From NCBI GenBank assembly GCA_022732315.1, contig JAIJUV010000017.1, forward strand, positions 1 to 27,139: a stretch of 27,139 nucleotides of DNA, read 5' to 3'. The notes beneath the pieces were generated by a model that ran no database searches, was not told the DNA's origin, and saw nothing but the letters and a program-made list of their open reading frames with translations. Below, piece by piece: positions 12,871-27,139 of the stretch. Made by a program: the position numbers and the translations under genes. Within the stretch, counting starts at the first letter, position 1, and the number at the start of each line of letters is the position of its first letter. The stretch comes from Prevotella sp. Its GTDB lineage: Bacteria; Bacteroidota; Bacteroidia; Bacteroidales; Bacteroidaceae.

Positions 12871-13800
12871 TTATTCTGTTCTCATCTTATGTGTCACGGG
12901 GTCTACTATCTTCAGCCATTGCTCACGGGTTCGCTTCCAGCGGTTGTGAGTCCAGAGCCAGAAGGCTGGTTGGCGTTGGATGGATTTCTCCAGGGCTCGG
13001 AAATACATCTCGGTAATCTCGAATTCCTTGCATTCCTTTGGCTTGTCTGTCAGAAGCTTGAATTCACCCTTGTAGTAGCCTCGCTTTACCCGTTGCATAT
13101 CAAGGTAATATACGGCAAAGTTGGCTTTTACGGCTATCTTCTCCGTTCCTGTCAATACTGGGGTGTCGTGGTGCAGAAAGTCTGTCCAGTAATGGATGTT
13201 GTTCCAGAACGGCACCTGGTCGGCGATGAAACCGATAACTATCTGTTTGCCTTCCTGGCGCATCTTTACGATTTTTCTCAGGGTTTCTGCCATAGGGATG
13301 CTGATGGAACCCAGGCGGTTGCGGAGATACAGGAAGAGTTTGTCAAAGGCGGGATTCTCCAGCACATGGTAAATCTGTCCGAAGGTGATGTCATCGCCAG
13401 CCCAGAGAGGCAGGGAGGTAACCCATTCCCAGTTGCAGTAATGTCCCAGATATATAGCGCACGACTGGCCTTTCTGGCATGATTCTCTTACTTTCTCTGC
13501 ACCTATGAACTGCATGCGTTTCATCACCTGCTTCTTGCTCATCGTGAAGAGCTTGATGGTTTCTACGATATAGTCGCAGAACCAGGAGTAGAATTCCTTC
13601 TCTATCTTGATGCGCTCTGCCTCGCTTTTTTCAGGGAAAGAGTCGAAGAGATGTTTTCTTACCAGTGGGCGGCGGTATTTTACCACATAATAAATAAGGT
13701 AAAATAAGCCATCGCTGAGAATGTAGAGCACTCTCAGCGGCAGCAGAGACATCAAGTACCAAATGCAGAATACACTGCCATATAATATCTTCTTCATCAT
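12871..13800 (-). CDS. Lipid A secondary acyltransferase, LpxL/HtrB-like
   Basis: The protein (309 residues from the chosen start) belongs to the LpxL/HtrB lysophospholipid acyltransferase family, which adds a secondary acyl chain to lipid A at the inner membrane. An N-terminal membrane anchor (YGSVFCIWYLMSLLPLRVLY) precedes the catalytic H-x4-E at H120/E125 in GHYCNWEW. Further conserved blocks follow, such as GFIADQVPF and the C-terminal FWLWTHNRWK. I chose the ATG at 13800, preceded by AGAAAGAAGAA. The upstream in-frame ATG at 13872 would overlap the ABC gene and add 24 residues unlike the family. Its position directly behind an MsbA-like exporter fits lipid A maturation. Confidence 0.9.
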   Translation of the reverse strand: MMKKILYGSVFCIWYLMSLLPLRVLYILSDGLFYLIYYVVKYRRPLVRKHLFDSFPEKSEAERIKIEKEFYSWFCDYIVETIKLFTMSKKQVMKRMQFIGAEKVRESCQKGQSCAIYLGHYCNWEWVTSLPLWAGDDITFGQIYHVLENPAFDKLFLYLRNRLGSISIPMAETLRKIVKMRQEGKQIVIGFIADQVPFWNNIHYWTDFLHHDTPVLTGTEKIAVKANFAVYYLDMQRVKRGYYKGEFKLLTDKPKECKEFEITEMYFRALEKSIQRQPAFWLWTHNRWKRTREQWLKIVDPVTHKMRTE

Positions 13801-13852
13801 TTCTTCTTTCTGTAAGAATGCAAATTCAACATTCAACAAATTCTTTCTTATC

Positions 13853-15706
13853 CTACACTTGCTGCATGTCATGCAGCTTGCGGTAGTAACCGTTCTTGGC
13901 TATCAGATCCTCGTGGGTGCCTCGCTCCACGATTCTTCCTTCGTGCAATACGCAGATCTCGTCGGCATTCTTGATGGTACTCAGGCGGTGGGCCACAGCC
14001 ACGGTGGTACGGGTCTTCATCAATCTCTCCAGGGCATCCTGTACCAGGCGCTCGCTCTCGGTATCAAGAGCCGATGTTGCCTCGTCGAGGATAAGGATAG
14101 GAGGATTCTTGAGGATGGCACGGGCTATGCTCACACGCTGGCGCTGACCGCCGGAGAGTCTGCCGCCACGGTCGCCGATATTGGTATCGAATCCGTGCTC
14201 CGATTTGGTGATGAACTCGTAGGCATTGGCTATCTTAGCAGCATTGGCAATTTCCTCGTCGGTAGCATCTGTCTTGCCGAAGCGGATGTTGTCCTTGAAG
14301 CTGGCGTTGAAGAGGATAGCCTCCTGGTTCACATTACCTATCAGCTGGCGAAGATCGTGTACGGCAAGGTCTTTCACGTTGATGCCGTCGATGAGCACCT
14401 CGCCCTCCTGTACATCGTAGTAGCGAGGAATCAGGTCGAGCATTGTACTCTTTCCGCTACCGCTCTGACCCACCAGTGCGATGGTCTTTCCCTTAGGAAT
14501 CACCAGGTTGATATCCTTCAATACATAAACCAGCTCATCGTTCTGATGGTCGGTATAAGCGAAAGATACGTGGCGGAACTCTATCTGATGCTCGAAGCTG
14601 CTGATATGTTCAGGGTTCTCCTTGTCCTTGATTTCGATCTTGGCTTTCAGAATCTTGTCGATACGTGCCATGGAGGCGAGACCCTTAGGAATATTGTAGC
14701 TCGCCTTGGAAAATTCCTTCAGCGGGTTGATGATGCTGTAGAGCATCACGAGATAGAAGATGATGGTAGGACCGTCTATTCTGCCGTAATCCAGAACCAG
14801 GATACCGCCAAACCACAATACTACCACGATGAGGATGGTTCCCAGGAACTCACTCATCGGGTGTGCCATCTGCTGACGGATGTTCACGCGCATGATGTTG
14901 TCGCGATAACTGCTATTCACCTGGTTGAAGCGCCAGTTCATCTTACCTTCAGCACAGAAAGCCTTGATGATGCGCAATCCGCCCAAGGTCTCCTCTACCA
15001 TACTCATCGTATCGCTCCAGAGACCTTGTGCCTCTGCACTCTGCGCCTTCAGTTTTCTACCCACATATCCCATGAACCAGCCGAATGGTGGCACAAAGAG
15101 GATGGTGAAGAGGGTGAGCTGCCAGCTGATGCAGATGAGCGTGATGAAATAGAAGAGAATCAGGATAGGATTCTTGAAGAGCATATCGAGCGACGACATG
15201 ATGCTGTTCTCCACTTCCTGCACATCACCGCTCATTCGGGCGATGATATCTCCCTTGCGCTCCTCGCTGAAGAAGCCCAGCGAAAGCGAGGTAATCTTCT
15301 GGTAGAGTTGGTTGCGGATATCGCGAACAATACCTGTACGGATAGGGATGATGGTGGCTGAAGACAGAAAATAGGCTCCCGTCTTGAGGAATGTCATGAA
15401 GGCTAGGAACAAGCCGATAACCAGCAGAGCCAGTGATGCACTGTGCGCCACGATGAACTCCTGGATGTAATAATACAGGTTGTTGGTTGCCACTTCCTTG
15501 ATGCTGCCCAGCGTTCCATCCCATTCCATATAGTCGTTGGCACGGATGCCGCCATCTACCTGGAAGAGAATCTGCAGGATAGGAATCAAGGCTGCAAACG
15601 AAAATATGTTCAATACCGCAGACAGGATATTGAACAGAACAGAAAGCCCCAGATACTTCTTGTATGGAGGGACGAATCGGCGTAAGATTTGCAAAAATTC
15701 CTTCAT
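13853..15706 (-). CDS. MsbA-like ABC exporter (membrane plus ATPase domain)
   Basis: This half-transporter of 617 residues has six membrane helices in its first 330 residues, followed by an ATPase domain. Motifs are Walker A GQSGSGKST (413-421), signature LSGGQ (517-521), Walker B LILDEATSALD with D541/E542, and the H-loop VAHRLST. Likely cargo is lipid A-core or another glycolipid, because an LpxL-like gene and several glycosyltransferases follow in the same operon. I chose the ATG at 15706 (MKEFLQILRRFVPPYKKYLG), which fits the family. The ATG at 15742 lies upstream of the -7 box and cannot be used from that promoter. The predicted mRNA is almost leaderless. Confidence 0.92.
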   Translation of the reverse strand: MKEFLQILRRFVPPYKKYLGLSVLFNILSAVLNIFSFAALIPILQILFQVDGGIRANDYMEWDGTLGSIKEVATNNLYYYIQEFIVAHSASLALLVIGLFLAFMTFLKTGAYFLSSATIIPIRTGIVRDIRNQLYQKITSLSLGFFSEERKGDIIARMSGDVQEVENSIMSSLDMLFKNPILILFYFITLICISWQLTLFTILFVPPFGWFMGYVGRKLKAQSAEAQGLWSDTMSMVEETLGGLRIIKAFCAEGKMNWRFNQVNSSYRDNIMRVNIRQQMAHPMSEFLGTILIVVVLWFGGILVLDYGRIDGPTIIFYLVMLYSIINPLKEFSKASYNIPKGLASMARIDKILKAKIEIKDKENPEHISSFEHQIEFRHVSFAYTDHQNDELVYVLKDINLVIPKGKTIALVGQSGSGKSTMLDLIPRYYDVQEGEVLIDGINVKDLAVHDLRQLIGNVNQEAILFNASFKDNIRFGKTDATDEEIANAAKIANAYEFITKSEHGFDTNIGDRGGRLSGGQRQRVSIARAILKNPPILILDEATSALDTESERLVQDALERLMKTRTTVAVAHRLSTIKNADEICVLHEGRIVERGTHEDLIAKNGYYRKLHDMQQV

Positions 15707-15711
15707 AGGTG

Positions 15712-15743
15712 CAAATATAGTGTTTTTAAGGAAGACCGCCAAA
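15712..15743 (-). promoter_or_regulatory. Promoter of the MsbA-like operon, overlapping a hairpin
   Basis: On the minus strand a -33 TTTG (15740-15743) and a -7 TATATTTG (15712-15719) are separated by 20 bp. The -33 box lies inside the hairpin at 15732-15757, and the -7 box ends only 5 bp before the ATG. Transcription would therefore start at or next to the start codon. Confidence 0.7.
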
Positions 15744-15757
15744 CTTTTGGCGGTCTT
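15732..15757. terminator. Stable hairpin between miaB and the MsbA-like gene
   Basis: A 12-bp perfect stem (AAGACCGCCAAA with TTTGGCGGTCTT) has a two-base loop. It lies downstream of miaB and upstream of the ABC gene. The side following it on the minus strand (CCTTAAAAACA) is not U-rich, whereas the plus-strand side is. Whether it ends miaB transcription is therefore uncertain; it could insulate or regulate the overlapping promoter. Confidence 0.5.
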
Positions 15758-15850
15758 TCTTGACTTTTATTCTGTTTTTTCTTATAGGAGAGTCGTTTTG
15801 ACTCTGTTTTTTCTTTTTCTGGGAGTATTTGGGTATATTTTCACTTCTTT

Positions 15851-15895
15851 TTCTAAAGAAGCATTCTTACTCTTTTAGAGGGAGCATCCTTACTC
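15851..15895 (-). repeat. Degenerate two-unit tandem repeat at the 3' end of miaB
   Basis: Two units of 22 and 23 bp (15851-15872 and 15873-15895) share the pattern TT[C/T]TAnAG..AGCAT[T/C]CTTACTC. The second unit includes the miaB stop codon, so the repeat probably arose by duplication of the gene end. Confidence 0.45.
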
Positions 15896-17224
15896 CTTCA
15901 CTTCCTCTCCGAAGAGGGTAGCAGAGGTAGAACCGGTGATGCGGACCTTTACGAACTCTCCGATGTGGTGGTTGCCCTTGTCGATGACCACCGCCTTGTT
16001 CTGCTCGGTACGGCCCATCATCTGCTCACGGCTACGCTTACTGAAGTTTTCGATGAGGATGGTGAATTCCTTGCCCTCGTCCTTCTTGTTCTGCTCGGCG
16101 CTCACTTCGGTCTGTAGCTTGATGAGCTCGTTGAGGCGGGCTATCTTGGTTTCCTCAGAAACGTTGTCTGGCAGATGCTTGGCTGCGTAGGTGCCCGGGC
16201 GCTCTGAATACTTGAACATGAAGGCGCTGTCGAAGCCTACTTCCTTCACCAGCGAGAGGGTTTCCTGATGGTCTTCCTCTGTCTCGTCGTGATAACCCAC
16301 GAAGATGTCGGTGGTGATGCCGCAGCCTGGGATGATGCGCTTGATGTCAGCGATGTGCTGCAGATACTCCTCACGGGTGTATTTGCGGTTCATCAGCTTC
16401 AGTATCTTGTTACTTCCGCTTTGGGCTGGGAAGTGGATGTGCTTGCAGAGGTTTGGCTCCTCGGCGATGGCCTGCAGGATGTCCTCGGTCATATCTTCCG
16501 GGTTAGAGGTGGTGAAGCGTACACGCATGTCTGGCACTGCCTGGGCTACCATGTGGAGGAGTTCGGCGAAGGAAAGACTGCCTTCCTCGCGCTTGCCCGA
16601 TGGCGAGAGGCCATAGCTGTTTACGTTCTGTCCCAGCAGGGTAACTTCCTTGAAACCACGCTGCTGCAAATCGCGCACCTCACGCAGGATGCTCTCGGCA
16701 TCGCGGCTGCGCTCACGTCCACGTGTATAAGGCACGATGCAGTAGTGGCAGAAGTTGTTGCAACCACGCATGATGCTTACGAAACCGCTCACTCTGTTGC
16801 CACCGATGCGCTGAGGCACGATGTCACGGTAGGTCTCGGTCTTTGAAAGTTCTATGTTGATGGCGTTGGTACCCATCTCGCACTGCGCAATCAAATCCGG
16901 CAGATTGAGATAGCTGTCTGGTCCACAGACCAGGTTGGCATAGTGGTTCTGGATGAGGTCATCCTTCACTCGCTCAGCCATGCAGCCCAATACGCCGAGA
17001 ATCACCTTTCTTCCCTTCTTCTGTTCAGCATGCAGGGTGTCGAGGCGATGGTAAATCTTGTTCTCCGCATTCTCGCGAATGCTGCAGGTGTTCAGGAAGA
17101 TGGCATCAGCCTCTTCCTCTTTCTCGCAAATCTCGTAGCCTGCCATCTGCATCACAGAGGCAACTACCTCGCTGTCTGCCACGTTCATCTGGCAGCCATA
17201 AGTCTCAATAAACAGTTTCTTCAT
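15890..17224 (-). CDS. miaB: tRNA-2-methylthio-N6-dimethylallyladenosine synthase MiaB
   Basis: MiaB is a radical SAM methylthiotransferase that converts i6A37 to ms2i6A37 in tRNAs reading UNN codons. The 444-residue protein has the N-terminal UPF0004 domain with its three cluster-binding cysteines (C11 in ETYGCQMN, then NTCSIRE and LGCMAER). The radical SAM CxxxCxxC motif is RGCNNFCHYCIVPYTRG, and a C-terminal TRAM domain follows. The family length and all cluster ligands are intact. It follows the PAP2 gene by 73 bp without a visible promoter box, so co-transcription is likely. Confidence 0.97.
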   Translation of the reverse strand: MKKLFIETYGCQMNVADSEVVASVMQMAGYEICEKEEEADAIFLNTCSIRENAENKIYHRLDTLHAEQKKGRKVILGVLGCMAERVKDDLIQNHYANLVCGPDSYLNLPDLIAQCEMGTNAINIELSKTETYRDIVPQRIGGNRVSGFVSIMRGCNNFCHYCIVPYTRGRERSRDAESILREVRDLQQRGFKEVTLLGQNVNSYGLSPSGKREEGSLSFAELLHMVAQAVPDMRVRFTTSNPEDMTEDILQAIAEEPNLCKHIHFPAQSGSNKILKLMNRKYTREEYLQHIADIKRIIPGCGITTDIFVGYHDETEEDHQETLSLVKEVGFDSAFMFKYSERPGTYAAKHLPDNVSEETKIARLNELIKLQTEVSAEQNKKDEGKEFTILIENFSKRSREQMMGRTEQNKAVVIDKGNHHIGEFVKVRITGSTSATLFGEEVKE

Positions 17225-17297
17225 TGTTCTAGATGAATTCTAATTTATATATTAATGTATAACTATGATTTCTTTTTTAGCATCCCCGATGCCGTCA

Positions 17298-18251
17298 TCA
17301 TTTCATGTTCTTCGATGCTGCCATCAGCAGGAAGTAGAATACCACGGCAGAGATCCATCCGGCGATGGCATCGATGAGATAATGTGCCTGGATATACACG
17401 GTGGCCATGCACAGGAAGATGTAGAATGGCAGCATGGTGAAGAGCAGCTTGCGGTTTCTGCTGTGCCAGGCAAGGAGCATGCAGATGGTGCTTACGCCCA
17501 CGTGCGAACTCGGAAAGGCGGCGGTAGGACGCTCTCCGGCTTCCTTGGCATCCTCCACCAGCTGGTAGAAGATTCCGTCGGTATATCCTGGGGTAGGCAG
17601 ACAGTTGGTATGGGTGTTGAAGTAATCGCCCAGTGCCGGGAAGATTCCCTTGGCTATATCCTGCACACCCACGGCATCAAAGTAGAACGTAGGTCCCACC
17701 ACCGGCACGTAGATGTAGATGAGATAGTAGAGGAAGAAGCTGGCGAGCAGCACAAAGCTAGCTCTTTCTGCCTCGTAGTATCTGCAGAAGAAATAGTAGA
17801 GCACCACTGCTGCTATCATCGGATAATACATGAAGTAGCCCATCGACATCAGCTCGCTCACCACCGCCCACGGCAACGCCTTGGCAAAGAGCAGGGCGGG
17901 CTGGCATCCAAAGAGGTCTTGTTCCCAGCCTGCGAAGATATGGTCCAGGTTGGGGAACATGCGGTTGATCTCGTAAGTGTCTGGATACCACCAGGCAAGC
18001 AGGGCGATTTGTGCCATGATGCGCACCATCTTCGTTATCCTGCATGGAATCATGCGGTATACGCCCCAGAGGGCGAGGGTGATGACTAGAATTCTCAATC
18101 GTCCCCAAAGCATCGATTCCGGGTTCACCACCTTGGTAAAGGCGAAGAGCATGGTTATCACGGTGATGGCCATATAGCCCAGCATCGCCCATTCCAGTGG
18201 CAGGAGTCCCTTCTTTGGGTTCTTGTCTATCTTAAAATAATCTTTTATCAT
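17298..18251 (-). CDS. PAP2-superfamily membrane phosphatase/phosphotransferase
   Basis: The 317-residue polytopic protein has about six membrane helices and the C-terminal motifs of the PAP2 fold: FPSSHVGVST with the catalytic H250, and AHYLIDAIAGW with H290 and D294. The layout is closest to the PAP2_3 branch that includes inositol phosphorylceramide synthase (AUR1) and related lipid head-group enzymes, but simple lipid or undecaprenyl-pyrophosphate phosphatase activity is also possible. It starts 19 bp after the SDR gene, so the two are almost certainly one transcript. Sphingolipid-producing Bacteroidales make ceramide phosphate head groups, which makes a role there plausible but unproven. 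Confidence 0.82.
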   Translation of the reverse strand: MIKDYFKIDKNPKKGLLPLEWAMLGYMAITVITMLFAFTKVVNPESMLWGRLRILVITLALWGVYRMIPCRITKMVRIMAQIALLAWWYPDTYEINRMFPNLDHIFAGWEQDLFGCQPALLFAKALPWAVVSELMSMGYFMYYPMIAAVVLYYFFCRYYEAERASFVLLASFFLYYLIYIYVPVVGPTFYFDAVGVQDIAKGIFPALGDYFNTHTNCLPTPGYTDGIFYQLVEDAKEAGERPTAAFPSSHVGVSTICMLLAWHSRNRKLLFTMLPFYIFLCMATVYIQAHYLIDAIAGWISAVVFYFLLMAASKNMK

Positions 18252-18270
18252 TAATCAATGTTTATAGTTT

Positions 18271-19266
18271 TTACAGCCATCCGTTATCCTTGTACCACTT
18301 GATGGCAAGCTTTACACCTCTTGACAGAGGGTAGTGGGGATGATAGCCCAGCTCGTCCATGGCTGGCTCGATGTCACATCGCCAGTTGCGCTGCTTCAGG
18401 ATGTTATACTTGTCGTTGTTCAGTGCCGACATCTTTCCGGTCATTCTTCCCAGGTATTCGCCCACGAAGGTTACGATGCGCAATACCCAGATAGGCGCCT
18501 TGATGCGCAGCATCCATGGATTGCCCAATTCCTTCTGAATCAGGTTGCTGAAGGTTTCCGACTGGTATACCTCGCCATCGCTGAGGAAGTATTTCCTGCC
18601 GTTCATACCGTGGTCCAGAGCCAGGAACACAGCCTGCACCACATCCTGAACATACACAAAGGTGATGTCCTGACGCTTGAATCCTACGGCGAAATCCACG
18701 TGCTGCCTGATGCTCTGAGCCATGAGGAAATAGTCCTTCTCTCGGGGACCGTATACGCCGGTAGGGCGCAGGATGATATAAGGGAAGTTGTTGCCGATGC
18801 TGTCTAGATAGCGTTCTGCGGCAAGCTTGCTCTTGCCGTATGCCGTATTAGGCTTAGGCACATCGTTCTCACTGATTTCCTGATAAGGCTGATCCTCACG
18901 GATAGCTCCGAAGATGCTGAGCGAACTGACGAATACAAATCGCTTGATGGGCATTCCCAGATGCAGGATGGCATTCACCAGGTGCTTGGTGCCCTCGGTG
19001 TTCACCTTATAGAAATCCTCTGCATGCAGGCACTTGGTGGCGCCGGCTGCATGCACTATATAGTCGAACTCGTGCGGGGCGAGTTCTTTCTCCAACTCTT
19101 CCTCTGAAGAAAGATTGAGATTGATGAAATGGATGCGATCGTCTTGCAGGTATTTCCTGGAACTGCTGGGGCGTACTGCCGCCCAGGTCTCCATGCCTTG
19201 TCTTAAGGCTTCTTCCACGATGTAACTGCCGATGAATCCCGACGCACCCGTTACTAGAATCTTCAT
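18271..19266 (-). CDS. NAD-dependent epimerase/dehydratase (extended SDR)
   Basis: The 331-residue Rossmann-fold oxidoreductase opens with KILVTGASGFIGSYIVEEAL (NAD(P)-binding GASGFIG at residues 7-13). It carries the catalytic YxxxK as Y143/K147 in AYGKSKLAAE, a VHAAGATKCL segment and RPTGVYGPRE. Members of this group act on nucleotide sugars, 3-beta-hydroxysteroids or ceramide precursors (the CerR ceramide reductase is an extended SDR). The nearby PAP2 lipid enzyme favours a lipid substrate, while the wider glycan region favours a sugar; the sequence alone does not decide. It is the first gene of the leftward SDR-PAP2-miaB group. Confidence 0.87.
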   Translation of the reverse strand: MKILVTGASGFIGSYIVEEALRQGMETWAAVRPSSSRKYLQDDRIHFINLNLSSEEELEKELAPHEFDYIVHAAGATKCLHAEDFYKVNTEGTKHLVNAILHLGMPIKRFVFVSSLSIFGAIREDQPYQEISENDVPKPNTAYGKSKLAAERYLDSIGNNFPYIILRPTGVYGPREKDYFLMAQSIRQHVDFAVGFKRQDITFVYVQDVVQAVFLALDHGMNGRKYFLSDGEVYQSETFSNLIQKELGNPWMLRIKAPIWVLRIVTFVGEYLGRMTGKMSALNNDKYNILKQRNWRCDIEPAMDELGYHPHYPLSRGVKLAIKWYKDNGWL

Positions 19267-19297
19267 TAATTAATTATGTAAAATTGCAATTTCGCTG

Positions 19298-19305
19298 CAA
19301 AATTA
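19298..19305 (-). promoter_or_regulatory. -7 element for the SDR-PAP2-miaB group
   Basis: On the minus strand this reads TAATTTTG, a perfect TAnnTTTG box, ending 32 bp before the ATG at 19266. No TTTG occurs at the expected -33 spacing. Confidence 0.6.
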
Positions 19306-19365
19306 CAACAAAAAAATGAGTTATCATGCATGTTTTTCCGAAATATGACGAAAATATTTAATTTC

Positions 19366-19399
19366 TTTGTCGTATTTGTATAAAAATGTAGTATCTTTG
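19366..19399 (+). promoter_or_regulatory. Promoter of the kinase gene, implying a leaderless mRNA
   Basis: The -7 box TATCTTTG (19392-19399) is preceded by TTTG at 19366-19369 (22-bp spacing) and again at 19375-19378. The ATG is at 19404, only 4 bp after the box, so the predicted transcription start coincides with the start codon. Confidence 0.6.
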
Positions 19400-19403
19400 C
19401 AGT

Positions 19404-20666
19404 ATGGAACAAGTTTCGGGATTCTATTTCCCTCTTTCTGGTCAGACTTCCTCCGATTTTTCGGAAATGGAGGAAATCTCGGTTGGTGGCTTTAATGTCC
19501 TCATTCGTGCCAAGCGTGATGGCAAATGGTGGGTGTTGAAGGCGCTGGCACCCGATGTACGTCATAACGAAGTGTTCCGAAACCTGTTGCATAAGGAGTA
19601 TGATATCCTTTCCAAGATTCAGCATCCGGGCGTGGTTTACGTGGAGGGCATCGAAGAGGTGGATGGCTACGGAGAATGCCTGGTGCAGGAATGGATTGAT
19701 GGCGTTACCCTGGATGAATGGCTCAGCACGCCGCATACCCGGTCGCAGCGCAGGCAGGTGGCTCACCAGCTGCTCGAAGTGATGGAGTATGTGCATAGCC
19801 AGCAGGTGGTGCATCGCGACCTGAAACTCTCGAACATCATGGTTACGCGCAGCGGATGCGTGGTGAAGGTGATTGACTTCGGATTGTCGGATGCCGATTA
19901 CTATGCCATATTGAAGTCGCCTGCGGGCACCGAGGGATACATCTCGCCCGAACAGCAGCGGGGTGGACCCACCGATGTGCGCAACGACATTTACAGTCTG
20001 GGCATCATTCTGGATAAGCTGCAGCTCGGTTTGTCCTGCAAACTTTCCATCGGGCGCTGTCTTTGTCCCCTCGAAGCTCGCTATCCCAATGTAGCTGCCC
20101 TGCGCCATCGCATCCTGTTTCTCCACCGTTCCCTGCTGGCGCTCTGGATGGTGCTGGCTTTGCTGCTGGTGGGCATTGCCGGAGGTGCTATATATAATAA
20201 GGTGAACCAGCCTGAAACCATCTATGATGTGGTAACCCAGTTTAAGGTGGGCAACTTCTTGTGTACTTCCTGGGGCGGCGGTGTTGTTTCGGTGAAGGCA
20301 ATCAACCAGAAGGATTCCTGCATCGAGGTTCCCAAGACGGTGACTTACCAGGGCATGATCTATAAGGTGGATGAGATAGAGAAGAATGCCTTTGCCCGGC
20401 ATTCCGTTCTGAAGTGGCTGGTATTCCCCGATACCCGGCTTCATGTGATGCGTGGCATGATTACCGGCAGTCCTCATATTCAGAGCATCTGTTTCCGCAG
20501 TGCCCAGCCGCCTATCATAGGCAATGCCATCTGGAAAATCAAAATCACGGATGTATTCGAGGCTCCTTGCTTTGAAAAGGTAAAGCTGCTGGTTCCTAAG
20601 GGCAGCCTTGATGCCTATCGGAATTCTCCTTGGGGCAGATTCCGGCATATTGAGGAATATGAATAA
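19404..20666 (+). CDS. Membrane Ser/Thr protein kinase fused to a BspA-like LRR domain
   Basis: The 420-residue protein has three parts. A cytoplasmic eukaryotic-like kinase domain (about 20-235) carries the ATP lysine K46 (WVLKAL), catalytic loop HRDLKLSN (H137, D139, K141, N144), metal-binding DFG (D158), SPEQ in place of APE, and DIYSLG. A single membrane helix follows at about 244-266 (LLALWMVLALLLVGIAGGA). The C-terminal extracytoplasmic domain (about 280-420) has BspA-type leucine-rich repeat features: VTYQGMIYKVDEIEKNAF and the closing VPKGSLDAYRNSPWGRF. The glycine-rich loop is weak (SVGGFNVL) but the other catalytic residues are intact. An alternative start at 19467 would remove the leaderless arrangement but also residues before the kinase fold. 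It is convergent with the transglutaminase-like gene. Confidence 0.88.
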   Translation: MEQVSGFYFPLSGQTSSDFSEMEEISVGGFNVLIRAKRDGKWWVLKALAPDVRHNEVFRNLLHKEYDILSKIQHPGVVYVEGIEEVDGYGECLVQEWIDGVTLDEWLSTPHTRSQRRQVAHQLLEVMEYVHSQQVVHRDLKLSNIMVTRSGCVVKVIDFGLSDADYYAILKSPAGTEGYISPEQQRGGPTDVRNDIYSLGIILDKLQLGLSCKLSIGRCLCPLEARYPNVAALRHRILFLHRSLLALWMVLALLLVGIAGGAIYNKVNQPETIYDVVTQFKVGNFLCTSWGGGVVSVKAINQKDSCIEVPKTVTYQGMIYKVDEIEKNAFARHSVLKWLVFPDTRLHVMRGMITGSPHIQSICFRSAQPPIIGNAIWKIKITDVFEAPCFEKVKLLVPKGSLDAYRNSPWGRFRHIEEYE

Positions 20667-20740: not shown

Positions 20741-22531
20741 TTAGTACCACACTTCAATCTGTGGCGACTCTTTTGCGTAACTTGGCATGCATCTGCCTAT
20801 TCTTGCGCCGATGTAAGTTGGGTCGCAGATATAGTAGGTCTTGCCCTTGTATTCATACGAGGTGCCGTTTGCCACTGGCTGGTTGAAAGCCACGGCAGTA
20901 CACTCATGACCAGGGAACTGGATGAGATGCACATCAAGACCCAGAATTTCGTGCACCAGATAGGCGTAGAAGATGGCACGATCCTCGCAGTCGCACAGCG
21001 GATAATAGAGCGTCTCCTCGAAGTAGAAGTACTTCTCGCGCTTAAACTGCTCATCATCTGTGGCGTATGGGAAACCCTTCTGTATGAATCTCAGAATTCG
21101 GTTGGCAGCATCCTGCTCGTCCAATCCAGCCACCTGGGTGCGGATCTGCTCCACCACTTCGTTGCGGAACTTCTTGTCTACCACGCTGGAAGCCACTGTA
21201 GGAATATCTATCACCGGATATTCATCGAGCATCGGCATGATGCCTGTAGGCACTTCGCCCTTCAGGGTGATGCCCGCCGCCTCGTAGCTGAATGGCTTGG
21301 TGCCGCTTCCTATCACGGTCTTGCCGGTGAATCTCAGCTCCATGTCCTTACCCAGTTCTGCATCCTTAGGCAGGTCGCAGGTGCGGAAAGCGCCGCTGTC
21401 GTCGATGTTCGGATAGATATAGTACTTCTTGCCGTCGATGTTGATGTATGATTTCTCAAACACATGCTCTGCGTAAGGCACGAGCATTGCCACCTGGTGG
21501 TCGTTCATACCCAGACGGATGTTGTAGCCGCAGTTCACCAGAACATACTGTGCCGCCACAATCTTTTCGTTCTGGCTGGCGTTCGGCATCACGGCGTTGA
21601 TGTATTTCTCTACGAGCATGGCAGAAGCCCAGTCGCTGAGTCCCATCTTGCGCGATTCGGTGGCGAAAGCCTGGGTCACCTCCTTGAGGTCTGATTTCTT
21701 CAGCGTCTTCCAGTAAGCTACCACGTCGTTGGTAGAGGCGATGTCCTTCTTTGCCAGCAATATGGCCTTCTGGAACTGGATGTTCTCTCCGTAGTAATCC
21801 ACGTCGATGGTCTGCTTGCTCACTGGCACCTTCACATGTCCGATATTCGGCAGTGCCGGCATCACAGGGATGGCAGATACGGCTGGCATCAGCGGGATTT
21901 CTATGCCCGAACCGGTGAACTCGATGTCTGGAATATCCGGCTTCACCTCCGGCAGCTTCGGCTTGTTCACAGGGTCAACACCTGGACGGATGGTAGGTGC
22001 CTTCGGATTCTTCTTGTTGGTAGGCACCTTTGCCAGTGGGTCGGTAGGCAGTGCCGGCACCTTGGTAAGGTCTGGCTTCTTGTTGATGTCGCCCAATCCA
22101 CCTTCCGGGATTTCGATGCCCGAACCGGTGTAGTCGATATCTGGAATATCCGGCTTCACCTCCGGCAGCTTCGGCTTGTTCACAGGGTCGATGGTAGGGC
22201 GCACCTTAGGTGCAATCGGACTCACCGGCATCTTAGGTTTCACGGTCACCGGCTTTTCCGGCTGCTTAGGCTCCGTATAGGTAGGTGGAGTCTTTGGCTT
22301 AGGAACCTGCGAGCGTATATCTCCCTTAAATTTCTTATACTCTTTCCACACACCTTGCATGTACTTATCGTAGTCGGTAAGTATGGTGTTGCGGAACTTG
22401 TTGTAGTCGTCCATCATGCCTTGTCTTGCCTGCTGGAACTGCTTCACGAAGTCATCGTTCTGCGCAAAGGTTGGTGTTGCCTGTAAGCCAAGCAACAGTA
22501 TCATGCTGAGTGTAGGATATATTCTTTTCAT
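20741..22531 (-). CDS. Secreted transglutaminase-like protein with Pro-rich repeat linker
   Basis: The 596-residue protein starts with a signal peptide (MKRIYPTLSMILLLGLQATP, then TFAQ). Next comes a charged helical segment (residues 25-75), then a proline-rich linker (about 75-250) containing two near-identical copies of DPVNKPKLPEVKPDIPDI followed by TGSGIEIP. The C-terminal half ends in a transglutaminase-like fold: Cys in YPLCDCEDRAIFYAY (C513 or C515), H542 in FPGHECTAVAF and D570 in YICDPTYIG form a plausible Cys-His-Asp triad. It is likely exported to the periplasm or surface, where it could cleave or cross-link peptides. Substrate unknown. It has its own promoter (22581-22611). Confidence 0.8.
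   Translation of the reverse strand: MKRIYPTLSMILLLGLQATPTFAQNDDFVKQFQQARQGMMDDYNKFRNTILTDYDKYMQGVWKEYKKFKGDIRSQVPKPKTPPTYTEPKQPEKPVTVKPKMPVSPIAPKVRPTIDPVNKPKLPEVKPDIPDIDYTGSGIEIPEGGLGDINKKPDLTKVPALPTDPLAKVPTNKKNPKAPTIRPGVDPVNKPKLPEVKPDIPDIEFTGSGIEIPLMPAVSAIPVMPALPNIGHVKVPVSKQTIDVDYYGENIQFQKAILLAKKDIASTNDVVAYWKTLKKSDLKEVTQAFATESRKMGLSDWASAMLVEKYINAVMPNASQNEKIVAAQYVLVNCGYNIRLGMNDHQVAMLVPYAEHVFEKSYINIDGKKYYIYPNIDDSGAFRTCDLPKDAELGKDMELRFTGKTVIGSGTKPFSYEAAGITLKGEVPTGIMPMLDEYPVIDIPTVASSVVDKKFRNEVVEQIRTQVAGLDEQDAANRILRFIQKGFPYATDDEQFKREKYFYFEETLYYPLCDCEDRAIFYAYLVHEILGLDVHLIQFPGHECTAVAFNQPVANGTSYEYKGKTYYICDPTYIGARIGRCMPSYAKESPQIEVWY
21894..22189 (-). repeat. In-frame duplicated 83-bp segment in the transglutaminase-like gene
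   Basis: Bases 21894-21976 and 22107-22189 are near-identical and are offset by 213 bp, exactly 71 codons. They encode the two DPVNKPKLPEVKP... blocks of the linker. Only a few third-position and conservative changes separate them, which points to recent duplication or gene conversion. Confidence 0.8.
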
Positions 22532-22580
22532 AAGCTCTTTTTTATGTTGTATACTATTATAAAGATAGATATCTGCGATG

Positions 22581-22611
22581 CAAAGATACTATTTTTTTCT
22601 TTATAGTCAAA
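22581..22611 (-). promoter_or_regulatory. Promoter of the transglutaminase-like gene
   Basis: On the minus strand a -33 TTTG (22608-22611) and a -7 TATCTTTG (22581-22588) are separated by 19 bp. This leaves an approximately 45-bp leader before the ATG at 22531. Confidence 0.75.
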
Positions 22612-22628
22612 GTTTTCTTAAAAAAAAA

Positions 22629-22663
22629 GCTCTCTACCCCATTATTTTTTTGGGATAGAGAGC
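22629..22663 (-). terminator. Terminator after the small secreted-protein pseudogene
   Basis: A 12-bp stem with one mismatch (GCTCTCTATCCC with GGGGTAGAGAGC on the minus strand) is followed by eight T residues, a textbook intrinsic terminator. It lies 23 bp beyond the restored stop codon of the pseudogene at 22686. Confidence 0.8.
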
Positions 22664-22685
22664 CTGACAGTATCGTTCTTAGAAG

Positions 22686-22982
22686 TTACCTGGCCCGATT
22701 TCTTACCTTGATGGATGGATTCTCTGGGTCGTTGAAATCCACCATCAGGAATTAGGTAACCATGATCGCCATAGTTGGATGAATAGTAATCCTGTTTAAT
22801 CTGGATGCCGTAGGTCTCGCCTCCGGCGCCCATCTTCACCACGTCGTTGTCGGCAAAGCGGATATTGATAAACTGGTTGCTCTGGAAGCACATCTTCAGC
22901 TTTCTCAGATACTCGCTTGTGCTGTGGTGCAGTTCAAGGCTAGTGCCAGGGCTGCCACCATCATAATCATAATCTTTCTCAT
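22686..22982 (-). pseudogene. Small secreted protein, broken by two frameshifts
   Basis: Reading from the ATG at 22982 gives a clear signal peptide (MRKIMIMMVAALALALNCTT, then AQA), followed by a stop a few codons later. In the next frame the text continues as SEYLRKLKMCFQSNQFINIR and IQIKQDYYSSNYGDHGYL. After an apparent one-base insertion near 22750-22754 a third frame continues as LMVDFNDPENPSIKVRNRAR to a TAA at 22686-22688. The middle frame instead runs on into the terminator hairpin, showing it is not the native end. The intact ancestor was probably a roughly 98-residue exported protein of a family I cannot name. A promoter (23027-23034) and a terminator remain, so it may still be transcribed. 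Confidence 0.75.
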
Positions 22983-23026
22983 AATTATATTATCATTTAT
23001 CATTTGTTTTTTATTGTTGTCGGCGG

Positions 23027-23100
23027 CAAAATTACAAAAATCTTCTGAGAGTGGATTGGTTCAATTTGGTTCAATTTCATTTTTGAGTGCAAAAAAAACT
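23027..23100 (-). promoter_or_regulatory. Promoter module A: -7 box plus tandem TTGAACCAA repeats
   Basis: On the minus strand the -7 box TAATTTTG (23027-23034) is preceded by two direct repeats of ATTGAACCAA (about 23056-23075), one helical turn apart, in the place of the -33 region. The module is duplicated upstream of the nuclease-like gene at 24660-24727 with the same spacing. Confidence 0.65.
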
Positions 23101-23116
23101 TAAAAGGCAATGGCGT

Positions 23117-23242
23117 GGGTAAAATAATAGCCATAACTAGCACTATCAGCATAGTTATGGCTACTGGATTTTATTTACCCTTAAGGCAAAAAATAATTAG
23201 CCTTAAGGGTAAATATATTTAGCCTTAAGGGAAAATTTTCCT
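23117..23242. repeat. Palindrome-dense intergenic element
   Basis: A perfect 11-bp hairpin (AGCCATAACTA 23130-23140 with TAGTTATGGCT 23153-23163) has imperfect outer arms (GGGTAAAATAA with a TTTATTTACCC-like arm). A second perfect 11-bp hairpin follows (ACCCTTAAGGC 23178-23188 with GCCTTAAGGGT 23201-23211). A third GCCTTAAGGG (23223-23232) and the palindrome GGAAAATTTTCC (23231-23242) complete it. Both stems have 12-base loops. It lies in the gap downstream of the nuclease-like gene and may include its transcript end. Confidence 0.7.
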
Positions 23243-23307
23243 GTGGTTCCGGATGTATGCTCTCCAAACCCCCAGTTTAGATGATACAAGGAACCATGGT
23301 TTTGCAG

Positions 23308-24579
23308 TTAGATTGATGCTGCATCCAAACTTCCGTTCTTAAGATGAGCTACAATCTTATTCATTTTATTCTTCATATACTCCAGTGTCTTCAGGATAGG
23401 CATGACATCTGATTCTATGTTGAAATAATAGAATGAGCCATAAGAGTTGAAAGAATTTTCTTCTTTTTCTAATTCTTTTTGGAATGCCGGATAGTTATCC
23501 AGTCCGCAAAGTTCGAGGTGCTTTCTTACTCTATTCTTCCAGGCAGCAATATCTTTCTTTTTGGTTGTCTGGTTTATACCATGATTGGTATTTGTAGCCA
23601 CAATTCCTATTCTCAAAGGATGATTGCCTTGTTGCTGAAAAGTCAAGATACCTTTTTCTGGAATAAGATACTTGAGCTCCAGTAATGCTTCGCCATGGAA
23701 GAAGTTGACCATTATAAAGAACTTGTTTTTGTTCTTGCTTTGGCTCTCGGTTCCCTCCATCTGCAGGATGTCTTTGTCTGAATGCGCCATGACAACCTCT
23801 TTTTCTTCTCCCAGCTCTTCCTTTATCATTCGGAGTAATATGCTAGCGCAATGCTGCATCACCAGCTTTTGCCAAATGTCATAGCAGCGGATGGCATAAA
23901 ACTCCTGATGGTTAAGAAGTGAACTCCAGCTTGCTGTCGGTAGAATCGCATTCTGATAGCAGATTTCTTTCTTCAGGATTTTTTTGATGTAGTCAGCAAA
24001 ACTGCGAACAAAGTTGCAATACTGTGTTATCAATTCCTGATAGAAAGGAGTAATCTGTTGGCTCTTGTTGGCCCTATCAAGATACTCTATATATTGAGAG
24101 TAATATATAAGCTTCCAGTTGCAGTCGCTGGCGTAACTTTCTGTCAGACAGAGAAGGACGTAGTTGGTCTTGACATTAGTTCCTTTGTTAAGCTTTTGAA
24201 CTTTTTTCTGATATTCAGCCAATTGCTCCTGGTAAGGAATGCTCTTGAATTTGTTTTCAAGCACAAACAGAACATCTCCAGGAACGTCCTCTTCTTCTAG
24301 GTTATTTTCAACCTTTTCCTTATTTGTATTCTTTGTCTTTTGGCAAATACACAAATCGAAGTTCTTGTATTCTCGCTTTACCATCATCGTGTTGGAATCG
24401 AAATCCCAATCCACGCCAAAGCAGGAATGCAGGAGTTCGTTGAAAACTCCTCTTGTTGCATCATCCTCAGCCAACCATGCCAGAAAGTTGCTATGGAATA
24501 GCTCCTTGGAAGACAGAGACAGCTGGAAGATGGCGTTAGCTTTTAGCTCTTTCACAAAATCTTCTTGTTCTTTTGTCAT
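23308..24579 (-). CDS. PD-(D/E)XK nuclease superfamily protein (PDDEXK_4-like)
   Basis: The 423-residue protein resembles the PDDEXK_4 (PF14281) family. It opens with a segment typical of the group (IFQLSLSSKELFHSNFLAWL), has D75 in KNFDLCIC, and the ExK pair E108/K110 in FVLENKFKSI followed by YQEQLAEY, the usual nuclease-core order. The remaining 300 residues are a family-specific region without a motif I can name. It is expressed from promoter module B (24660-24727) with an approximately 80-bp leader. There is no methyltransferase or helicase beside it, so a classic restriction system is not evident. A role in nucleic-acid processing or defence is possible but unproven. Confidence 0.82.
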   Translation of the reverse strand: MTKEQEDFVKELKANAIFQLSLSSKELFHSNFLAWLAEDDATRGVFNELLHSCFGVDWDFDSNTMMVKREYKNFDLCICQKTKNTNKEKVENNLEEEDVPGDVLFVLENKFKSIPYQEQLAEYQKKVQKLNKGTNVKTNYVLLCLTESYASDCNWKLIYYSQYIEYLDRANKSQQITPFYQELITQYCNFVRSFADYIKKILKKEICYQNAILPTASWSSLLNHQEFYAIRCYDIWQKLVMQHCASILLRMIKEELGEEKEVVMAHSDKDILQMEGTESQSKNKNKFFIMVNFFHGEALLELKYLIPEKGILTFQQQGNHPLRIGIVATNTNHGINQTTKKKDIAAWKNRVRKHLELCGLDNYPAFQKELEKEENSFNSYGSFYYFNIESDVMPILKTLEYMKNKMNKIVAHLKNGSLDAASI

Positions 24580-24659
24580 AAGCCGTTCATTTTATTAAGT
24601 TGTTTGTATTATCATTCGCCAGTTCATAGGCTTTTCGCCTAATATCACCTTTTCGCCGG

Positions 24660-24727
24660 CAAAGTTACGAAAAAAAAACGAAAGTGGATTGGTTCATTTT
24701 GGTTCAATTTCATTTTGCATCAAAAAA
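24660..24727 (-). promoter_or_regulatory. Promoter module B of the nuclease-like gene
   Basis: On the minus strand the -7 box TAACTTTG (24660-24667) is preceded by ATTGAACCAA and AATGAACCAA repeats one helical turn apart (about 24689-24708). The distance from the -7 box to the shared GGATT (plus strand) is 19 bp, identical to module A. Similarity extends to the A-rich tract near 24727. Confidence 0.7.
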
Positions 24728-24789
24728 ACTTAGTGGTTTCTTGTAACTTGCTTCTTAAACGTCTTGTTTTGATGATCTCGTCGATTGTT

Positions 24790-24919
24790 GGGGGATTAAA
24801 ATCCCCCGGTTTGATAGGTCGAACCTTTTTTACTGCGGATTTCAAATCCGCAGGGACGCCTAGCGGAATAAAAATCTTAAATTTTCAGTCGGAAAGATTT
24901 GCAATGATTCCGACTAAAA
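24790..24919. repeat. Three consecutive short palindromes (REP-like)
   Basis: Hairpin 1 is GGGGGATT/AATCCCCC with a 2-base centre (24790-24807). Hairpin 2 is CTGCGGATTT/AAATCCGCAG around one base (24833-24853). Hairpin 3 is AGTCGGAA/TTCCGACT with a 13-base loop (24887-24915), extended to about 13 bp by flanking ATTTT/AAAAT with one bulge. Such GC-rich palindromes in AT-rich intergenic DNA resemble REP sequences. Confidence 0.65.
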
Positions 24920-25088
24920 TCTAATTGATAAAACGATATAAAAGTCTGTAGTTGAAAAGATTAAAAGAAATATAATGCTTTGTAACTTCGGAGATTTTTG
25001 GGGTAAACGTATATATACAAAAGAGCCCCACGCATTTGAACTTCGTTGAGAGGCTTGGTGGGAACTGACGCTATAAAGATACACATAA

Positions 25089-25496
25089 TTATCTGGTATC
25101 GTCCGTATTCTTGCAGAATATCCCGATATTCGATTGGAAAACGACGTAAACGGAAAAGAGTTTAAGGTAATGATACCGAGAACTATCCAAAAGGACAATA
25201 ATACTATCCCAAAGATAGATATCACTACCCAAAAGGATAGCTTAAAGGATAGTAATACTATCCCAAAGGACAGTTTAAAGGATAGCAATACTATCCTAAA
25301 GGCATTAGAGCCTATACAGGCAGAAGTTCTAAGATACATAATGGCTCATCCGCAAACAACCAGAGAGGAAATTGCAGATTCCATAGATGGAATTTCGTTT
25401 GGTGGAGTAAAATTCATTATAGCAAAATTACAGAAGAAAGGCTTGCTGAAACGTATTGGCGGAAGAAAACACGGAGAGTGGCAGATATTAATTTAA
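25089..25496 (+). pseudogene. Truncated AlbA_2/RecG-like regulator, C-terminal winged-helix part only
   Basis: The open part starts after a TAA at 25086 and begins in the middle of a conserved block (SGIVRILAEYPDIRLEND, then KEFKVMIPR), the usual end of the ATP-binding region in AlbA_2 (Schlafen-like) transcription regulators. A linker of repeated QKDS/LKDSNTIPKDS-type units follows, then a complete winged helix (ILKALEPIQAEVLRYIMAH, REEIADSIDGISFGGVKFII, LLKRIGGRKHGEWQILI). The N-terminal AlbA_2 domain is missing. An ATG at 25170 could still produce a 108-residue DNA-binding remnant; a TTG at 25134 is less likely. No promoter box is seen. Confidence 0.6.
25184..25300 (+). repeat. Palindromic tandem repeat coding for the linker
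   Basis: Units of about 20-27 bp alternate AAAGGA[T/C]AG and ACTATCC. Paired units such as GGATAGTA-A-TACTATCC form perfect odd palindromes while remaining in frame. The same DNA could therefore form hairpins and encode a flexible linker. Confidence 0.6.
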
Positions 25497-25769
25497 AATA
25501 AGAGGGTGTGGCACAAGCCACACTTACGTATAAAAAAGTTTTAGAATTTTATTGCCACTATTGCCACGCAGCAGATAACTGTTTGGTGTATAGTTGTTTA
25601 AGCGTGGCAATAACATCGTTTTTATTGCCACGCTACTACCACGCTATTTCCTAACGGAAGAAGGGACTCCTGACGGAATATGGGACACCTGGCAGAAGAC
25701 ATGGAATGCCTGGAGGAAAGTTAGATTGATGCTTCAAAAAAAGGCTTCATTTCATCCTTTTTTGCCCCT

Positions 25770-25833
25770 AATCCCAAAAATCATATAGAATTTTGGGATT
25801 ACAATCCCAAAAATCAGTATAAATTTTGGGATT
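25770..25833. repeat. Two tandem 31-bp palindromes overlapping a -33 box
   Basis: Units 25770-25800 and 25803-25833 each have perfect 10-bp arms, AATCCCAAAA and TTTTGGGATT, around an 11-base AT-rich centre that differs slightly. The period is 33 bp, about three helical turns. The right arm of the second unit contains the -33 TTTG of the downstream promoter. Confidence 0.85.
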
Positions 25834-25855
25834 AGGATATTTTTTCTTATCTTTG
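25825..25855 (+). promoter_or_regulatory. Promoter of the DUF4143 ATPase gene
   Basis: A -33 TTTG (25825-25828) and a -7 TATCTTTG (25848-25855) are separated by 19 bp, giving a leader of about 45 bp before the ATG at 25907. A protein bound to the overlapping palindrome would block the promoter. Confidence 0.8.
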
Positions 25856-25906
25856 TGCCGGAATTGAAATAAAGAACATTATTAATAATGGAAAGGGTTA
25901 AATGAT

Positions 25907-27034
25907 ATGATACAACGTCAACTGCAAGATGTGATAGAGTCACGGATGTTTGCTGGAAAGGCTATTATCCTGATTGGAGCGAGACAGGTGGGAAAGAGTA
26001 CGCTTTTCAAAATGATTCTTGGAAAGCACGACGAACCAACTCTGTCTTTGAATTGTGATGAGCCGGAGGTAATACAGATGCTGTCGCAGATTAACTCTGC
26101 CGAACTCAAACTGCTGATCGGACATCATCGGATTGTTGTCATTGATGAAGCACAACGAGTAGAGAACATCGGAATGGTGTTGAAAAGAATCACTGATAAT
26201 TTTCCCGATGTGCAGCTACTGGTAACCGGCTCTTCCTCGTTTGAATTACAGAACAAACTTAATGAGCCGTTGACCGGACGTAAGTTTGAGTACCATCTCT
26301 TCCCTGTTTCTACTGGAGAATTGCTCAAATCCCAGGGGCTGTTGGGTGTCAAGCAGACATTGGAAAATCGACTTATTTATGGATCTTATCCTGATGTCAT
26401 TAATCATGCCGCAGATGCGAAGGAGCTGCTTTATAATCTCGCCAACAGTTATCTTTATAAAGACTTACTCAATTTAGAAAGCGTTCGTCGTCCAGCTTTG
26501 CTGGGCAAGTTGCTTACAGCTTTGGCTTTACAGGTAACGAGCGAGGTTTCTTATAATGAGTTGGCACAAACGGTGGGAACAGACAACAAAACGGTGGAGA
26601 AATATATTGATTTGCTGGAGAAATGTTATATCATCTTTAAGTTGAGCGGATTCAGTCGCAATCTTCGCACGGAATTAAAGAAGGCTAAGAAGTTTTATTT
26701 CTATGACAATGGTATCCGCAATGCCATTTTGCAGAACTTTGCTCCACTTTCGCTTCGCCAGGATGTTGGTGCCTTGTGGGAGAACTTCTTCATCAGTGAG
26801 CGGTTAAAGGCAAATCAGTATGCCGGCAGATATGTGAACAGTTATTTCTGGCGAACCAACCAGCAGCAGGAGATAGATTATATAGAGGAGTGTGACGGAC
26901 AATTCTCTTTGTTTGAGATGAAGTGGAATCCCAAGAGAGCCAACACTCAATTTCCGAATACCTTTCTTACTGCATACGATGTGAAGGAAAAAGCCATTGT
27001 AACACCAGAGAATTGGTTGGAATGGGTGCTATAA
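25907..27034 (+). CDS. ATP-binding protein, AAA_14 plus DUF4143
   Basis: The 375-residue protein matches the AAA_14 (PF13173) plus DUF4143 (PF13635) architecture common in Bacteroidetes and archaea. The Walker A motif is GARQVGKST (24-32) and Walker B is VVIDEAQ with D80/E81. The arginine-rich segment VTGSSSFELQNKLNEPLTGR fits the sensor region. A central winged-helix-like part (VSYNELAQTVGTDNKTVEKY) suggests DNA binding. The C-terminus (FWRTNQQQEIDYIEE, then FEMKW) has the D/ExK pattern of a nuclease-like fold. All family hallmarks are intact. Function is unknown; the palindromes over its promoter suggest autoregulation (inference). Confidence 0.93.
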   Translation: MIQRQLQDVIESRMFAGKAIILIGARQVGKSTLFKMILGKHDEPTLSLNCDEPEVIQMLSQINSAELKLLIGHHRIVVIDEAQRVENIGMVLKRITDNFPDVQLLVTGSSSFELQNKLNEPLTGRKFEYHLFPVSTGELLKSQGLLGVKQTLENRLIYGSYPDVINHAADAKELLYNLANSYLYKDLLNLESVRRPALLGKLLTALALQVTSEVSYNELAQTVGTDNKTVEKYIDLLEKCYIIFKLSGFSRNLRTELKKAKKFYFYDNGIRNAILQNFAPLSLRQDVGALWENFFISERLKANQYAGRYVNSYFWRTNQQQEIDYIEECDGQFSLFEMKWNPKRANTQFPNTFLTAYDVKEKAIVTPENWLEWVL

Positions 27035-27084
27035 ATAAGTCGTGTCTTTTTATAAATATGGTTGACTCCTAAAGTTTCAATTAC

Positions 27085-27139
27085 ATGAAAGAATCATTAG
27101 AAGCAACATTGAAAGATGTCGAACTTACCAAGGAAGTGT
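27085..27139 (+). CDS. Possible 5' end of a gene cut by the window edge
   Basis: An ATG at 27085 opens a frame (MKESLEATLKDVELTKEV) that runs off the window. There is no clear ribosome-binding site or promoter box in the 50 bp after the ATPase gene. The 18 visible residues are too few to name a family. Confidence 0.3.
   Translation, partial: MKESLEATLKDVELTKEV

Follow-up and report, generated by a model that had tools for sequence, protein, structure and literature searches.

A receptor-type Ser/Thr kinase with a BspA-like ectodomain and its putative dedicated partner in Prevotella-like Bacteroidales

The receptor-type kinase studied here is encoded in a 27,139-nucleotide stretch of a Prevotella sp. 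genome (referred to as the window; Table 1). We favour, with moderate confidence, a reading in which Prevotella-like Bacteroidales use a receptor-kinase signalling pair: this protein would be the sensor half, and a dedicated cytosolic partner would be its substrate. The protein belongs to a known kind, bacterial receptor Ser/Thr kinases of ordinary topology; of most interest is the wider family, which joins a compact kinase domain and exchangeable sensors to a conserved partner that has no name.

Table 1. Coordinates of the kinase gene, its parts and its surroundings in the window.
Feature	Position	Strand	Basis
Receptor-type kinase gene, 420 aa	19404..20666	+	ORF, full-length homologues, Pfam, structure model
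Cytosolic kinase domain, residues ~1-235	19404..20108	+	Pkinase E 3.1e-31
Transmembrane helix, residues ~243-264	20130..20195	+	hydrophobic stretch in translation; predicted helix 230-268
BspA-like LRR ectodomain, residues 269-420, expected in periplasm	20208..20663	+	
Stretch where the partner of sister genomes was expected; none found	22532..27139	.	six-frame hmmsearch, tblastn, blastn
Convergent neighbour, 596 aa, exported-looking	20741..22531	-	tblastn, ORF comparison
Divergent neighbour, NAD-dependent epimerase family	18271..19266	-	Pfam Epimerase 7.7e-43
Likely -7 promoter box TATCTTTG, 4 nt 5' of ATG	19392..19399	+	sequence; kept in relatives
Probable two-way terminator separating the convergent genes: 18-bp inverted repeat, 12-nt loop	20682..20729	.	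by eye

Kinase domain, membrane topology and ectodomain

The reading frame, which starts with ATG and stops with TAA, is considered a real gene because 5989 of the 7998 scored candidate proteins match its product at E ≤ 1e-3, and the 37 homologues aligned with it are 41–95% identical. These 37, taken from 120 homologues among the matches listed, form together with the window kinase the 38 rows of alignment A1. An overlapping antisense reading frame (19266–20648) is most probably a shadow of the gene. Three clusters of full-length homologues at 90% identity alone comprise 3745 (P0001), 7196 (P0033) and 4844 (P0050) member sequences. Inspection by eye of another homologue, P0077, revealed a first half like that of P0033 and a second half like that of P0056, so that it is either a recombinant allele or an assembly chimera.

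Profile and catalytic residues identify the window protein as a predicted Hanks-type Ser/Thr protein kinase. Pfam Pkinase matches residues 21–207 with 109.2 bits against a cut-off of 31.7. The sequence-only reading had recognised the HRD and DFG motifs and the ATP-binding lysine, and had named variation of the active site among relatives as an argument against its interpretation. All three elements are present and nearly constant: K46, E65, HRD (137–139) and N144 are invariant in the 38 aligned rows, and DFG occurs in 37 of them, the remaining row having a deletion at that place. The activation segment is of uniform length, with 27 residues from DFG to EQ in all 37 rows that possess it. The best relative in the PDB, by sequence as well as by Foldseek rank, is PknB. 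Structure prediction, which had been proposed as a check, yielded a model of the whole protein with a mean pLDDT of 86.6, confidence being low in residues 1–15 and in the activation loop (162–172).

The single membrane helix proposed earlier agrees with a hydrophobic stretch that lies inside a predicted helix. Residues 206–242 contain six Lys/Arg and one Asp/Glu, as compared with three and two in residues 266–300, a charge bias that fits a kinase inside and a C-terminus outside. PASTA repeats, reported as absent by the sequence-only reading, are indeed not among the Pfam hits of the window protein at E ≤ 1, and the PknB_PASTA model matched over the kinase part only (113 bits against a cut-off of 450). 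By contrast, that reading's comparison with a eukaryotic receptor kinase in reverse order has lost its force because PASTA-type membrane kinases share the kinase–membrane helix–ectodomain order, which is usual among bacterial membrane kinases according to the available text of a review (PMC6213207).

The C-lobe of the kinase domain appears to be shortened. The Pkinase match of the window kinase stops at profile position 191 of 263. The distance from the αF aspartate (DIYSLG) to a conserved arginine near the end of the C-lobe is 31 residues in 31 of the 36 measurable rows of A1, versus 56, 59 and 44 residues in three control kinases (L081, L088 and L138, respectively; counted by eye, with the search pattern readable in three of eight control loci). 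In alignment A2, which holds 48 of the best 80 kinase loci of the genome collection described below, the same spacing was obtained for 26 of 40 measurable rows, a lower share explained in part by the search pattern, which can catch other arginines. Because the profile match ends early and the Asp–Arg spacing is short, we regard the αG region as missing or nearly so in this kinase family. In PknB, αG is involved in dimer contacts and substrate docking; activation of a kinase deprived of it is therefore probably different from that of PknB.

The C-terminal domain was originally assigned to the BspA type, and this assignment stands on other grounds than the profile match expected for the protein itself. 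The sequence VPKGSLDAYR is present as noted before (residues 397–406). A mismatch with LRR_5 had been named as a reason to abandon the assignment, and taken literally this is what the window protein shows, with no hit up to E 1 for the whole protein or up to E 10 for residues 240–420. We nevertheless consider the domain BspA-like, with a BspA-LRR fold, because orthologues match LRR_5 and the fold agrees: LRR_5 is found at E ≤ 1 in 25 of the 38 family rows, P0110, an orthologue with the same ectodomain, scores 33.9 bits against a curated cut-off of 27.7 (E 3.3e-8), and the best structural matches of the predicted window ectodomain are solved bacterial LRR structures. Since the protein has one inner-membrane helix in a Gram-negative cell, the LRR domain would reside in the periplasm, and the earlier comparison with cell-surface adhesins is unlikely to hold.

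Relatives of the kinase were traced in two collections. Matches at E ≤ 1e-3 occur in 122 of 150 genomes from the genus-level group of G001, which holds Segatella copri contig L001. Near-whole-length matches were restricted, among the matches listed, to five of these genomes, at 60–65% identity in G001, G048 and G051 and at 42% in G083 and G044. In the wider genome collection, a scan with the single window protein gave nothing and one with alignment A1 found relatives, with at least 554 of 588 candidate stretches encoding one; the best 80 loci were retained, near-duplicates included (e.g., L004–L006, L055/L059/L062 and L067/L068). Six of these loci (L001–L006) share the window ectodomain at clear scores, the rest scoring far lower or not at all. 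The ectodomains of the best 80 of at least 554 relatives fall into 13 sequence clusters with 42, 24, 3 and 2 members and nine singletons; the largest is helical-looking, and the cluster of 24 consists of LRR domains including long versions. Pfam profiles run on 48 of the best 80 relatives detected LRR_5 in 12, a weak EF-hand in at most four and Lcl_C in one, and four of the 80 lack a membrane helix at the hydropathy cut-off used. As far as can be judged from these clusters, kinase and partner were retained through exchanges of the ectodomain. Viral contigs contained no relative, and none of the 501 matching plasmid records covered 80% of the query.

The partner and its linkage to the kinase in relatives

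Clustering of neighbouring reading frames at the best 80 kinase loci returned one top family in 37 loci at a median start-to-start offset of 1.0 kb, followed by a runner-up in 26 loci at 3.1 kb. The partner profile was seeded with 28 motif-bearing reading frames from those same kinase loci. With this profile, 68 of the best 80 of at least 554 loci show at least part of a partner no more than 1.3 kb away from the kinase, mostly touching the kinase gene or within 300 bp of it; the partner is full-length in 64 loci, and 12 loci are without a neighbouring one.

A comparable picture emerged from the 150 genus-level genomes. Among the matches listed, 67 of 80 places with a full-length partner lie within 2.5 kb of a kinase, 61 of them within 1 kb, the partner being located upstream on the same strand (42), downstream on the opposite strand (13), downstream on the same strand (11) or upstream on the opposite strand (1). 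Seen from the kinase side, again among the matches listed, 2.5 kb or less separates kinase and partner at 66 of 93 places, and at 36 of the 46 strongest, which leaves 27 and 10, respectively, without an adjoining one. These places were drawn from the matches listed and comprise 93 kinase rows with E ≤ 1.5e-16 together with 80 partner rows; kinase rows of lower strength, partial-profile partner rows and partner rows below 99.5 bits were excluded. Adjacency that survives a rearranged order and strand speaks in favour of function.

The two genes also go together by genome. The genomes of kinase rows 1–46 were compared with those of the 80 full-length partner rows, among the matches listed. Of the 40 genomes that possess a strong kinase, 39 also encode a full-length partner, as do 17 of the remaining 110 (Fisher p 2e-21). 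G057 alone departs from this, with fragments of a partner next to its kinase gene. G083 and G044, whose kinases carry the same ectodomain, have no neighbouring partner and encode one on another contig of the same genome, the partner gene of G044 containing an in-frame stop. Pairwise distances of kinases and partners correlate with an r of 0.84 over 56 pairs (maximum of 2000 permutations, 0.22), to which species history contributes; for the 33 distant pairs, r is 0.61 versus 0.28, again with a contribution of shared species history. Taken at the level of sequence, kinase and partner are likely to constitute a dedicated signalling system.

The partner comprises about 190 amino acids. T49, L50, R52, L71, G76, W116 and G181 are invariant among the 42 sequences of alignment A5, and a serine at position 93 is conserved in 41 of them. 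This serine is situated between two regions, which seem to be an N-terminal helical and a C-terminal strand-rich one, a division that we guessed from the sequence. Nothing of note was found for the partner in Pfam and NCBIfam (42 sequences), PHROGs (three), PADLOC (one) or the PDB, and among the 120 homologues listed just two bear a name, 'hypothetical protein' and 'FL=1'. An FHA domain is absent from the 42 sequences when compared with Pfam, the best value for any family being 0.016. NCBIfam response-regulator hits (E 0.034–0.14), hits of the N-terminal part to HTH_3 and HTH_26 (23 sequences, Pfam) and PDB hits to phage CI structures are all at chance level. Because hhalign comparison of the partner profile with the XRE repressors HipB, PuuR and SutR of E. 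coli performed no better than shuffled columns, and the other hits are at chance level, DNA binding by the partner is a guess. P0261, a solo homologue, carries a UniRef name that begins with 'XRE family transcriptional'. The N-terminal region also occurs alone (~95 amino acids) or ahead of a membrane helix in proteins of about 300 amino acids (L192, L193, L194, L184–L191), and it is, by its distribution, a putative mobile domain without a Pfam match.

The failure of the profile comparison to support DNA binding fits a different assignment of roles, in which the kinase is a stand-alone envelope sensor of the PASTA-kinase type with many substrates, and its neighbour an accessory factor such as an inhibitor, anchor or adaptor and not a regulator of transcription. 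The kinase–membrane helix–sensor layout, the rank of PknB as best PDB relative and the intact frame of the window kinase in a stretch without a partner point in the same direction. We consider this alternative unlikely in view of the lack of PASTA domains in the window kinase and of the co-occurrence with a single protein family, which is better explained by a dedicated partner. The phosphatase complement of relatives may argue against it as well. PASTA kinase genes generally stand beside a phosphatase gene according to the available text of PMC6213207, whereas PP2C families PF13672 and PF00481 occur in one of five genomes of relatives, G048, and are absent from the other four (G001, G051, G083 and G044); none of the five has PF07228.

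The window locus and divergence at a fixed site

All three sister genomes (G001, G051 and G048) have a partner at this chromosomal site, located about 360 bp after the kinase on the same strand in G001 and G051 and separated from it in G048 by a homologue of the convergent neighbour. No partner was found in the window, either at E ≤ 10 in a search of all six frames with the partner profile or at significant scores with three partners in tblastn and blastn. The kinase–partner pair is thus one seen in relatives of this strain. The strain's own partner may have been lost or moved, may be encoded elsewhere or may follow past position 27139; we infer that one exists in its genome. Genes that follow in G051 and G048 find no match in the window before 27139, short intergenic stretches excepted. 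The convergent neighbour has Pro-rich repeats, no Pfam hit below E 0.28 and, near its C-terminus, a pattern that may resemble transglutaminase-like proteases. Its counterpart beside the kinase in G048 is 80% identical (dS 1.26), and no homologue was found near the kinase in G051 and G001.

On the other side of the kinase, a row of genes pointing away from it (13853–19266) encodes an MsbA-like ABC transporter, MiaB, a PAP2 phosphatase and the NAD-dependent epimerase. The row could serve lipid metabolism, and three of its four members have relatives near the kinase of Prevotellamassilia (L003) too. With 94–97% identity in G048, G051 and G001, the epimerase provides a yardstick for divergence. 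The four upstream genes together are 84–99% identical at the protein level to those of the three sister genomes (dS 0.24–0.98), as compared with 60–65% for the kinase and dS values of 1.35, 2.11 and 2.19, which, being above 1, are near saturation. Nucleotide identity falls across the 150-base bins flanking 19300, a position that separates the start of the epimerase gene from the kinase gene. Because dN and dS are both raised, in kinase part and ectodomain alike, the pattern is more readily explained by allele exchange, or by old alleles having been kept for long, than by selection on the ectodomain alone. Gene 12871–13872, upstream of the conserved block, reaches just 45–47% identity with its best match in each of G048, G051 and G001; it may be a second divergent spot or a non-orthologue. 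The kinase is thus not alone in its divergence here, and both this gene and the convergent neighbour (dS 1.26) weaken the argument drawn from it.

Such divergence at a constant position could also be the signature of an arms race, as expected of an anti-phage defence kinase, with infection sensed by its ectodomain or by the cell and growth halted by the kinase. Compatible with this idea are the PADLOC matches of the kinase domain to Mad6 (9.7e-35) and PD-T4-6 (2e-34), the matches of two downstream genes to PDC-S26 and PDC-S01, which we take to be phage-defence candidates, and the dS of the kinase (1.3–2.2, near saturation) relative to that of the four upstream genes. However, the matches of the kinase are confined to its generic kinase domain (within residues 13–209), its site and orientation are kept in three of three sister genomes while the genes beyond differ, and a periplasmic sensory domain is, to our knowledge, not typical of defence systems of the Mad6 or PD-T4-6 type. 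A role in defence is therefore improbable in our estimation. The two downstream genes encode a PDDEXK_4 protein (23308–24579; PDC-S26, 2.5e-12) and an AAA_14/DUF4143 protein (25907–27034; PDC-S01, 6e-165), and they occupy the stretch that holds the partner in the sister genomes. The PDDEXK gene is flanked by two copies of an element of about 70 bp with TTGGTTCA direct repeats (23008–23079 and 24659–24728), and related sequence is located near the partner gene in sister genomes. The element was dropped as a candidate shared operator: an 18-mer taken from it occurs no more than one to five times per genome in three genomes when one mismatch is allowed.

Promoters of Bacteroidota follow the consensus TAnnTTTG. 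The box preceding the kinase ends 4–5 nt before the ATG in all four genomes examined (window, G048, G051 and G001). A promoter box about 10–12 bp ahead of the start codon denotes a leaderless gene according to the available text of PMC3160421, and under this rule the kinase mRNA is probably leaderless. Predicted N-terminal extensions of several homologues read F-A-x right before the true start, which fits a translated box.

Proposed signalling and comparison with known systems

A sensing role, suggested already by the sequence-only reading, is still the best explanation for the architecture of the kinase. In the receptor–partner reading that we favour, the periplasmic BspA-like LRR domain would bind some ligand, and binding would shift the single-pass protein into another state or oligomeric form, thereby modulating its compact kinase domain in the cytosol. 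This kinase would act mainly on one dedicated cytosolic protein, the TLKRLWGY partner, whose phosphorylation, perhaps at the conserved serine, might change gene expression. Ligand sensing, kinase activity, the role of the partner as substrate and an effect on transcription all have the standing of proposals here. With ectodomains swapped and kinase and partner constant, the family would amount to an array of sensors that all feed the same output.

It is tempting to speculate further, at what we judge slightly below even chances, that the family represents an undescribed Ser/Thr-kinase counterpart of two-component signalling. Such a system would combine an αG-less kinase and interchangeable periplasmic sensors (BspA-LRR, helical and others) with one dedicated two-region output protein. 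Many genomes would carry a single copy or several, often working without PP2C phosphatases, and within the Segatella copri group one chromosomal position would retain highly divergent versions. The human gut commonly harbours S. copri and related bacteria. If true, a conserved kinase–partner pair with exchangeable sensors would offer a directly testable signalling system, together with a nameless protein family and a route to signals that differ between species and strains. A description of the kinase family was not found by title or abstract opening in the full-text literature searched, and neither 'leucine-rich' nor 'Bacteroid' occurs in the available main text of two kinase reviews (PMC6213207, PMC4601284).

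The closest known systems are the PASTA receptor kinases PknB, StkP and Stk1/PrkC, which likewise possess an N-terminal Hanks kinase, one membrane helix and a C-terminal sensor outside. The window kinase differs from them by an LRR domain in place of PASTA repeats and by the lack of an αG segment, and no PP2C phosphatase was found in four of the five genomes of its relatives. For the ectodomain, BspA-type LRR proteins of gut bacteria (4oju, BACCAP_00569; 4gt6; 3sb4, BT_1240) form the comparison set; unlike them, the window kinase has a single small domain that is tethered to a kinase by a membrane helix, and its copy of the domain misses the LRR_5 profile.

HipBA resembles the present pair in that a Ser/Thr kinase gene adjoins a small partner gene, as it does in most relatives studied here, yet a toxin–antitoxin role, the kinase being the toxin and the adjacent gene product the antitoxin, is very improbable, given that no HipA family is among the hits of the window protein in Pfam (E ≤ 1) or NCBIfam (E ≤ 0.01), that the kinase has the layout of a single-pass membrane receptor with a sensory domain, that gene order and orientation vary, and that the window kinase is without a partner and the genes of G083 and G044 are on different contigs.

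PknH–EmbR of Mycobacterium tuberculosis consists of a membrane kinase and a transcription factor that it phosphorylates, as described in the available text of PMC4601284 and PMC6213207. The partner described here differs from EmbR by the absence of FHA (42 sequences, Pfam), no shared ectodomain was seen, and EmbR is targeted by several kinases according to the available text of PMC6213207. Under the receptor–partner reading, the two systems would nevertheless be alike in that a membrane kinase with an outside domain acts on a regulator.
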